A stretch of 64,000 nt of DNA from Gemmata massiliana (lineage in GTDB: Bacteria; Planctomycetota; Planctomycetia; Gemmatales; Gemmataceae): NCBI GenBank assembly GCA_000531095.1, contig HG799462.1, positions 1,039,932 to 1,103,931 of the forward strand, given 5' to 3'. Shown piece after piece: positions 3,666 through 64,000 of this stretch (positions are counted from its first letter, which is position 1; each line of letters begins with the position of its first letter). The notes below the pieces were generated by a model. That model was not told the origin of the DNA and did no database searches. It saw nothing but the letters and a program-made list of their open reading frames with translations. Position numbers and translations under genes: made by a program.

Positions 3666-5099
3666 ATGTCGAAGTTCTTCAAGTACAAATCGGCCGCGGA
3701 ACTGGGAGCGGAGAACGCCCGGCTCGGGATCGATTTGCGGTTCTCCGAAGACCTCGCACCTCTGTTCCAGCCCCTTGTTGTGGGGCCGCGAACCATCGGT
3801 AATCGGTGGGGCATTCACCCAATGGAGGGGTGCGACGGCGAACCGGACGGCTCGCCGGGCGAACTCACGTTTCGTCGGTACCAGCGCTTCGGCGCGGGCG
3901 GGGCGAAACTCATTTGGGGCGAAGCGTGTGCCGTCACGCCCCAAGCGCGAGCCAACCCCCGGCAAATAGTACTCAACGAATCGACCAAGTCCGCGTTCAT
4001 GCGAATGGTCGCCGACTGTCGGAAGGCTCACTGCGACGCGAACGGAACAGATACCGACTTGCTCCTCGGACTGCAACTGACGCACTCCGGGCGCTACAGC
4101 CACCCGCATCCGATCATTGCTATCCACGACCCGATCCTCGATCCGCGCACGACCGCGAACCGGGCCACGGGTGCGCGCGTCACGGCCGACTACCCGCTCA
4201 TTACCGACGACGAACTGAAGCGCCTCGTCGATGACTACGTTCGCGCCGCGAAACTCGCGGTGGAAGTGGGCTTCGATTTCATCGACGTGAAGCAGTGCCA
4301 CCGTTATTTGCTGAATGAGTTGCTCGGCGCACGGAACCGCCCCGGTCCCTATGGTGGCAGTTATGAGAACCGCACCCGGTTCGCACGCGAAGTCTTCCAG
4401 GCCGTGCGCGCGGCGGTTCCCGCTTACGTCGTCCTCGCGACGCGGATGAACGTTTACGACGGCATCCCGTTTCACAAGTCGGCGAACGACGACGGTACCC
4501 CCGATACTCACGCGCTCCCACTCGTGAACGGCTGGGGGATGTCCGAGGGTGACCCCTTTACTGTGGATCTCACCGAACCGCTGCGCTGGATCGCGGAGAT
4601 GCGCGCGCTGGGGGTAACGCTCGTCAACGTGACGATGGGCAACCCATATGCGCAGCCGCACTACGGGCGCCCGTTCGAGTACGCGCCGCCGGACGGCTAC
4701 GAATCGCCCGAGCACCCGCTCACCGGCGTGGACCGGCACTTCCGCACGGTCGAAGCCATTCAGAAGACGTTCCCGGATCTCGCCCTCGTAGGGACGGGAT
4801 ACAGCTACTTGCAAGAGTTCCTGCCACAAGTGGCTGCGGCGAACGTCCGCGACGGGCGCGTGAGCATCGTGGGCGTCGGGCGCGGCACACTGTCCCAGCC
4901 GGACTGGGTGCGGCAGTTGCTCGATAGCGGCAAGCTTGATCGCAAGCGCGTCTGCCGCACGTTCAGTTATTGCACGGCGATTATGCGCGCGAAGCAGCAC
5001 CCGCTGGGTCAGTACGCGACCGGGTGCCCGCCCTTCGATAAAGAGGCCTACGGCGAAATTTGGAAGGAAGTGCAGCAGTTGAACGTGAAGAAATCGTAG
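3666..5099 (+). CDS. NADH:flavin oxidoreductase, Old Yellow Enzyme family
   Basis: This 477-residue FMN-dependent TIM-barrel oxidoreductase has the family signature near the middle: the HRYLLNELLGARNR stretch followed by GGSYENRTRF, matching the conserved H-x-YLL..L..NxR..YGGSxENRxRF of OYE-like enzymes. Near the N-terminus are HPMEGCDGEPDG and the RFGAGGAKLIWGEACAV segment, and LQLTHSGRYSHP follows. These enzymes reduce activated C=C bonds with NAD(P)H; the substrate here cannot be told. I chose the ATG at 3666 (MSKFFKYKSA) because the 29 residues read from an upstream ATG at 3579 do not look like the family. The gene stands alone between opposite-strand and unrelated neighbours. Confidence 0.9.
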   Translation: MSKFFKYKSAAELGAENARLGIDLRFSEDLAPLFQPLVVGPRTIGNRWGIHPMEGCDGEPDGSPGELTFRRYQRFGAGGAKLIWGEACAVTPQARANPRQIVLNESTKSAFMRMVADCRKAHCDANGTDTDLLLGLQLTHSGRYSHPHPIIAIHDPILDPRTTANRATGARVTADYPLITDDELKRLVDDYVRAAKLAVEVGFDFIDVKQCHRYLLNELLGARNRPGPYGGSYENRTRFAREVFQAVRAAVPAYVVLATRMNVYDGIPFHKSANDDGTPDTHALPLVNGWGMSEGDPFTVDLTEPLRWIAEMRALGVTLVNVTMGNPYAQPHYGRPFEYAPPDGYESPEHPLTGVDRHFRTVEAIQKTFPDLALVGTGYSYLQEFLPQVAAANVRDGRVSIVGVGRGTLSQPDWVRQLLDSGKLDRKRVCRTFSYCTAIMRAKQHPLGQYATGCPPFDKEAYGEIWKEVQQLNVKKS

Positions 5100-17213: not shown

Positions 17214-17722
17214 CAGGGCGTCCCCTCGAACTCGCGTTCGATCTCCGTCAGCGCGTCGCGCATCGACAGCACGGGTTCTTGCGACCGAAGGGCGAGGAAG
17301 TAATCGTCCGTGAGGTCGTCGTTGGGGTGAAGGTGGTCGTAGAGTGCGAAGAACGCGCGCCGCAGGCGCGCGTGTTCGGCGGTGAGAGCGCGAATGGTCG
17401 CTCCCAGTGAACTCGCCTCTTCTTTAGTGCGAAGCGGGTGCGTGGGGGGTACGTTCCCGCCTCGCGCAAGAAGCGCGAGTACGGTTTGCCCCTCAGCTTC
17501 CATAATTTCGGGCGTTTGGCTGCGGATGTGTGCGGCAGTTGCTTCGTCCAGCACCCCGGCTGTGGCCGGGTCTTCAAGTATCGCGCGGCACCAGTGGCGC
17601 AGGTTCGAGCACCGCGCACGAAGTGCGACTGCTTCCCGCTCCAAACCGTCGGCAGAGTCGCTCGACTGCGGGGTGTAGCCGTTCGAGTCCGCGGGGGGCG
17701 TATTGGGAGCCGTGTCGTCCAT
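17213..17722 (-). CDS. Hypothetical protein upstream of the RelE-like gene
   Basis: This 169-residue soluble protein has a disordered N-terminus (MDDTAPNTPPADSNGYTPQSS) and predicted helices (EREAVALRARCSNLRHWCRAIL; ATIRALTAEHARLRRAFFALYDHL). No family is recognised. It overlaps the downstream 103-residue gene by the TGATG junction. If that gene is a toxin, this one would sit at the antitoxin position, but its length and lack of a DNA-binding motif argue against a standard antitoxin. Confidence 0.6.
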   Translation of the reverse strand: MDDTAPNTPPADSNGYTPQSSDSADGLEREAVALRARCSNLRHWCRAILEDPATAGVLDEATAAHIRSQTPEIMEAEGQTVLALLARGGNVPPTHPLRTKEEASSLGATIRALTAEHARLRRAFFALYDHLHPNDDLTDDYFLALRSQEPVLSMRDALTEIEREFEGTP

Positions 17723-63447: not shown

Positions 63448-64000
63448 TTACGCGCCCAGGAGTGACACATTGTTCCAGGTCTGGAAGTTGTGGGCCAACA
63501 GAGTCGCCAGTTTCTCTCGATGTTTGGTCGGCAGATCCGCGAGGCACCCGTCGATGGCACTCTGGAACCTCTTGAAGTCCTGATGGTGCCGACTGTTGAG
63601 CACGTCCTTCTTCACGAACTTCCACAGGCGCTCGATCAAGTTCAGGTTCGGCGAGTACGACGGCAGGAACAGCAGCTCGATCCCCAACTGCTTGGCCGCG
63701 TCCTGCACCAACACGCACCGCTGATACGGGGCGTTGTCCGGCACCAACGTGACGGGCACCGAGCCCGCCCGGCGCGCGCTCGTGTGAAGCGACGCGCACA
63801 CCGACGTGGCGGTGATGTACGTCGTGTTGATCTCCGTCACCAGTTCGTGCGTGACCGTAATAACTTCGTATAGGCATACATTATACGAAGTTATACGAGA
63901 CGAGCGCTGTGTTCCGCACGAAGCACCACACCCAACCCAGGAACGACGCCAATACGAAGTGCGACGCATCCACGAAGTACACCGACCGCTTACCGCTCCG
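63448..64000 (-). pseudogene. IS630-type transposase, interrupted by a linker sequence and running off the window
   Basis: The 3' part (from the linker to the stop at 63448) encodes VTHELVTEINTTYITATSV and VPDNAPYQRCVLVQDAAKQ, FLPSYSPNLNLIERLWKFVKKDVL: the second Asp and the Glu of a DDE transposase of IS630 type. The 5' side, 63899-64000 on the minus strand, encodes SGKRSVYFVDASHFVLASFL and WVWCFVRNTALV, with the first Asp. Between them is a 43-base foreign sequence and a missing piece of about 20 residues. The frames on either side do not match. Confidence 0.85.
63856..63898. other. loxP-containing linker sequence (likely 454 paired-end library artefact)
   Basis: Two perfect 13-base loxP arms ataacttcgtata (63860-63872) and tatacgaagttat (63882-63894) flank a 9-base spacer ggcatacat (loxP has 8, gcatacat). 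Flanking cgta and acga extend it to the 42-base linker used in 454 Titanium paired-end libraries, with one extra G. It lies in a transposase gene. Confidence 0.92.

Follow-up and report, generated by a model that had tools for sequence, protein, structure and literature searches.

A mate-pair linker, almost certainly of laboratory origin, in the draft assembly of Gemmata massiliana

The stretch analysed here, referred to as the window, comprises 64,000 nucleotides of the Gemmata massiliana assembly (C1:1039932-1103931), which holds 9,269,192 bases in 22 contigs. At its right-hand end an IS630-type transposase gene lies in two parts, and the parts are separated by a 43-nt string built around two lox arms and by a short stub. 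The features of this region are as follows.

63448..63855, minus strand: C-terminal part of an IS630-type (DDE_3) transposase in its true frame, assigned by homology (PF13358)
63448..63969, minus strand: chimeric ORF of 173 aa, made up of out-of-frame residues, the stub, the translated linker ITSYNVCLYEVIT and the true C-terminal part
63856..63898, plus strand: mate-pair (Cre/loxP) linker, a 42-mer with one extra G, assigned from the sequence, the arms and a printed 42-mer
63899..63913, no strand: 15-nt stub between the linker and native IS DNA, matching nothing in the intact copy
63914..64000, minus strand: upstream part of the same transposase gene, 100% identical over 87 nt to the C2 copy

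The C-terminal part of the transposase (63448-63855) is 99% identical in DNA to three other copies in the genome and 97% identical in protein to two of those three. To the right of the linker, 87 of 102 nt match the intact copy on C2 at 100%; that copy has an open frame of 324 aa. In the window the upstream frame, whose residues RSGKRSVYFVDASHF... are the same as those of the relative P0001, reaches a stop inside the linker and ends at 63881. The chimeric ORF begins out of frame, reads through the linker and then enters the true C-terminal frame. It scores 77.9 bits as DDE_3 (PF13358; cut-off 28.6), and P0001 scores 90.2 bits. The linker peptide was found in none of the 120 protein relatives listed (7961 were matched in the protein database).

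The distance between the shared anchors is 60 nt in the C2 copy, 61 nt in the C13 copy and 58 nt in the window, where it is filled by the 43-nt linker and the 15-nt stub. These lengths rule out a simple insertion of the linker at this site: native DNA was replaced here by a stretch nearly as long. The first-pass annotation, made from the letters of the window, had described a broken IS630 transposase with about 20 residues missing between its parts and an ITSYNVC-type peptide on the minus strand. The break is borne out by the matches of both flanking parts to other genome copies, the missing residues by the 60-61 nt that 58 nt have replaced, and the peptide was found in the 173-aa ORF. Its warning that nearby genes may be artefacts holds for the IS630 copy; the two neighbouring frames, presumably gatA (502 aa) and gatC (102 aa), are open.

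An exact search of the whole assembly for the 15-nt stub gave its own site alone. When up to 2 edits were allowed, in ten loci around IS630 copies (L009, which contains the window's site, L033 and L151-L158), the search recovered the stub's own site, in L009 and L158, and one further near match, at position 11621 of L033, with one substitution and one insertion. Relative to the IS copy of that locus, the near match is on the opposite side from where the mate would be expected. The stub may be the stump of the other mate. The IS630 copy in the window also has four substitutions within 64 bp near the linker (63728, 63740, 63779 and 63791) that are absent in two other copies; a third copy covers three of these places and lacks the substitutions there too. 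They may be read errors or genuine divergence. Further IS630 copies, at C11:120117 (L033 7854) and C2:416154 (L169), are found beside linker copies or within about 150 bp of them; repeats may attract such misassemblies.

The string at 63856-63898 begins with cgta and a 13-nt lox arm; a 9-nt spacer, the second arm in inverted orientation and acga follow. Both arms are perfect, at 63860-63872 on the plus strand and 63882-63894 on the minus strand, and are the sole matches in the 64,000-nt window even at 2 mismatches, where 0.19 would be expected. The tails, cgta at 63856-63859 and acga at 63895-63898, lie where the first-pass annotation had placed them around the arms. The available text of one report prints the two strands of a mate-pair adapter, and one of them equals the window string minus the extra spacer G (PMC5199103); that G (GGCATACAT here, GCATACAT printed) is the single difference from the 42-mer. 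The comparison of the 43-base string with the linker, which the annotation had proposed, has thus given a match to a printed 42-mer, bar one G. Another report, in its accessible part, gives the 42-mer as the adapter used for a 2-kb Cre/loxP mate-pair library sequenced on HiSeq (PMC5710592). The 43-letter string is almost certainly a laboratory leftover, DNA foreign to the bacterium, and the site is a technical artefact without biology.

The assembly contains 31 complete lox cores; the same pattern read backwards, as a control, gave 0. Among 95 genomes of the family the pattern is present in one, the G. massiliana assembly, and in 0 of the other 94. Single arms number 96, with 62 in the complete cores and 34 beyond them. 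Remnants with an alignment to the linker of 20 nt or more account for 31 of the 34 extra arms, and the other three align over 18 or 19 nt; at L188 the alignment took the neighbouring complete copy, and the 37-nt remnant proper to that locus is present. Together, 31 cores and 31 partial or altered remnants occupy 62 places. An N run occurs within the surrounding 120 nt for 8 of the 34 partial copies, and 10 consist of precisely linker bases 1-37, beyond which comes other DNA or N.

Among the 31 cores the spacer is exact in 24 and the whole 42-mer in 9. The right tail is acga in 26 (27 when L020, which has a palindromic spacer, is turned), and the left tail is cgta in 15. In the remaining 16 the left tail is different, and 9 of these end in GC (L008, L011, L013, L021, L023, L025, L029, L032 and L033 at 5001); GC-ending left tails also occur in some Sediminibacterium, Actinobacillus and Sedimentitalea assemblies. 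The partial copies that stop at linker base 37 are L169, L173, L178, L180, L184, L185, L186, L188, L190 and L191. Perhaps the GC tails and the base-37 stops reflect a second adapter form or a trimming rule.

The cores cluster at gaps. Twelve of the 31 lie within 200 bp of an N run, defined as at least 5 N, compared with 276 of 22086 background positions sampled in the same loci (binomial P 1.6e-15). The window's site is 106 bp from an N run, and no N run falls within the window itself: a 33-nt run starts directly after it, at L009 5142-5174, equivalent to window positions 64001-64033. The site thus lies at a contig end within a scaffold. The 14 nt closest to the linker on either side vary from site to site, and longer flanks, of up to 300 nt, match another of the 30 loci at few sites only (L012-L018, L013-L025, L014-L020, L024-L032, L009-L033, and L027, a flank of which holds a second linker).

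In a circularised mate-pair library, Cre recombination links both fragment ends by way of the linker. The prediction for a linker left in a consensus is that the DNA on its left recurs downstream and the DNA on its right upstream, on the same strand and at the span of the library. The 31 sites were searched for exact copies of at least 14 nt, starting 2-8 nt from the core, at distances of 400-5000 bp. The predicted arrangement was found at 6 of 31 sites, and each of six control arrangements, with the wrong side or strand, at 0 of 31. The offsets of the six are about 1.2-4.0 kb. Left-flank copies are present at L005 (63 nt exact, 93 nt at 98.9%) and L022 (35 nt), and right-flank copies at L026 (123 nt), L031 (76 nt), L027 (77 nt, in a repetitive stretch) and L024 (16 nt only); four of the six are strong. 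The copy continues from the linker for 123 nt at L026 and for 76 nt at L031, and at both sites the sequence then changes abruptly to other DNA, as expected of a mate stump in the consensus.

Several copies were left out of this count. Those at L015, L018 (right flank) and L030 have the predicted direction and are weaker or not flush with the linker; an inverted 32-nt match is found at L014, many matches lie in the repetitive L027, and at L020 a 145-nt stretch stands on both sides of the linker. The 41 nt that directly adjoin the L018 linker on its left recur near L012, on another contig and not 3 kb away. At the window's own site a flush flank copy was looked for at 400-5000 bp and none was found. 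Sites without a flush copy number 25 of 31; if the model holds, their stumps would be short, in gaps or further away. In the comparison of L026 with genomes of the same genus, positions 4631-4791 gave at least 40-49 matches in each of five genomes and swamped the result; this segment translates to a prepilin-type N-terminus, which we take to be of the DUF1559 type common in planctomycetes.

The first-pass annotation had concluded that a mate-pair linker was left in the assembly. That conclusion is upheld by the 42-mer match, the 31 dispersed cores and their absence from the 94 relatives, and the clustering at N runs (12 of 31) and the mate-pair flank copies (6 of 31) bear it out further. It is as good as certain that the string is the loxP mate-pair linker with an extra G, most likely brought in by an untrimmed read of a circularised 3-kb fragment. 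As described in the available text of PMC3253782, a Roche 454 paired-end kit uses Cre-LoxP, and the linker marks the junction. A read would run from one fragment end, across the linker and into the DNA of the other end, and the assembler would take it as one ordinary read. In that way the linker and the mate stump could be built into the consensus wherever coverage is low, as at repeats and contig ends; coverage was presumably thin at the window's site. The source would be a 454 Titanium read, and the extra G could have arisen in sequencing or in PCR.

We take the 42-mer to be the 454 GS FLX Titanium paired-end linker. In the literature searched, a printing of the 42-mer under the 454 name was not found, and the label "454 Titanium" rests on a likely project match (PMC4672568) and the kit description (PMC3253782), both from the accessible parts of these papers. 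The accessible part of the genome report for G. massiliana IIL30 gives 454 Titanium sequencing of 3-kb paired-end and XL+ shotgun libraries, assembly with Newbler 2.8, and 22 scaffolds, 417 contigs and 9,249,437 bp (PMC4672568). The assembly analysed here also has 22 scaffolds and is 19,755 bp longer; it is probably that published draft project. The linker might instead come from another Cre/loxP mate-pair protocol with the same adapter, for example on Illumina, which we consider unlikely. In its favour, the same 42-mer was used in mate-pair libraries that the available texts describe without 454 (PMC5199103; PMC5710592, on HiSeq). The errors in the linker copies bear on the same point. The annotation had read the extra G as a typical homopolymer overcall; the one extra spacer G stands and an overcall is possible, but homopolymer indels are found in five linker copies (L009, in the window, L019, L163, L172 and L194), and at least 10 have a substituted base (L007, L015, L017, L020, L162, L164, L166, L181, L189 and L195), a balance atypical of 454 errors. 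The substitutions are mostly A to G or T to C, a pattern that looks more like PCR error, and they may come from the 17 PCR cycles given for the library in the available part of the published account. That account describes a 454-only project with the same number of scaffolds, roughly the same size and an agreeing library span, which argues against another protocol.

Two readings would place the string in the DNA of the organism itself. It could be proposed that the string is native, either the loxP-like site of a P1-type phage or plasmid or a member of a lox family spread by a Cre-like recombinase, on the grounds that the core is that of P1 loxP apart from the extra G and that the assembly has three distant Cre matches at 27-30% identity. 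No match closer than these was found in the assembly, so a close Cre homologue is lacking, and 2 of 18 genomes of the same genus also have distant Cre matches, yet without the lox core. The core is absent from the 94 other genomes of the family, its flanks are the synthetic tails, unlike those of P1 (CCTA and ATTA in X03453), and neither mate-pair flank copies nor clustering at N runs would be expected of a native site. A native lox site or Cre system is rejected on the non-P1 flanks, the lack of a close Cre and the 0 of 94 relatives with the core, and we regard it as wholly improbable. The sequenced strain might, by the other reading, have been engineered with a loxP cassette or transposon. 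Engineered strains do keep loxP scars, and a translated scar with ITSYNVCYTKLL is printed for yeast constructs in the available text of PMC4704724. A cassette is hard to reconcile with nearest 14 nt that differ between sites, and with flanks of up to 300 nt that match another locus at few of them; the cgta and acga tails belong to the mate-pair linker, and G. massiliana is described, in the part of the source available, as an isolate from a water network. Engineering of the strain is scarcely credible.

The linker is found in other public records as well. A scan for the lox core with one genome per species gave at least 98 stretches from at least 19 assemblies. Among the matches listed, 125 cores were read, of which 95 had the exact 42-mer and 113 at least one linker tail; two Escherichia records among the matches listed have flanks resembling those of P1. 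The exact 42-mer also occurs in four viral contigs. Fourteen phage records gave a match: the linker with a tail is in Lactococcus phage Q33, entered twice, and P1 is among the other 12, which are presumably P1 and mostly P1-like phages. In Q33 (JX564242.1 / NC_049809.1) the linker lies at 17544-17584 (L150 1501-1541), and where its relative BM13 has 37 nt, Q33 has these 41; the adjoining DNA on either side is identical in the two phages. A contig of Aeromicrobium sp. PE09-221 (L112) and plasmid unnamed3 of Alicyclobacillus fastidiosus (L117) have 1257 bp in common at 99.8%, and this stretch holds the lox core and what look like tandem repeats; it is perhaps a shared laboratory construct or contaminant.

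A linker-free copy could be compared at four sites. Overwriting fits two of them, the window (58 nt for 60) and Q33 (41 for 37). The other two, L014 and L020, were compared with each other, being related repeats that are 84-93% alike. A 148-nt stretch of L014 occurs twice in L020, around the linker. The interval between matches at L014 is about 50 nt as against about 265 nt in L020, and beyond it the sequence is disturbed again. That untrimmed mate-pair linkers often overwrite, the linker and stump replacing nearly equal native length, is a reasonable conjecture that we lean slightly against. As a general rule it is contradicted by the duplication or larger change at L014 and L020; overwriting is one outcome, not the rule. 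Where it did apply, gene length and neighbourhood would look normal and length-based checks would miss the linker, and each such linker in a public genome, including the sixty or so in this one, would point to a false coding island, with displaced DNA of up to about 120 nt.

The significance of these observations is that of a warning rather than a discovery. About sixty pieces of almost certainly kit DNA stand in this assembly, some with displaced native DNA, and each can give rise to a spurious break, ORF or lox site. The lox core with its cgta and acga tails provides a simple screening string for public assemblies, phage records included.

Set beside known systems, the window string agrees most fully with the Cre/loxP mate-pair linker, having all 42 bases in order, both tails and the orientation of the spacer in common with it; the linker has no extra spacer G and the window copy has one. 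Phage P1 loxP (X03453) shares both 13-nt arms and the 8-nt spacer, bar the same G, and has CCTA and ATTA as flanks where the window has cgta and acga. In the IS630-type transposase (DDE_3, PF13358) on C2 the frame is open, whereas in the window copy 60 nt have been replaced and the frame is broken. The linker in Lactococcus phage Q33 replaces native DNA in the same manner as that in the window; unlike the latter it is without the extra G, and it lies at the end of the portal gene, where it supplies the end of the annotated frame.
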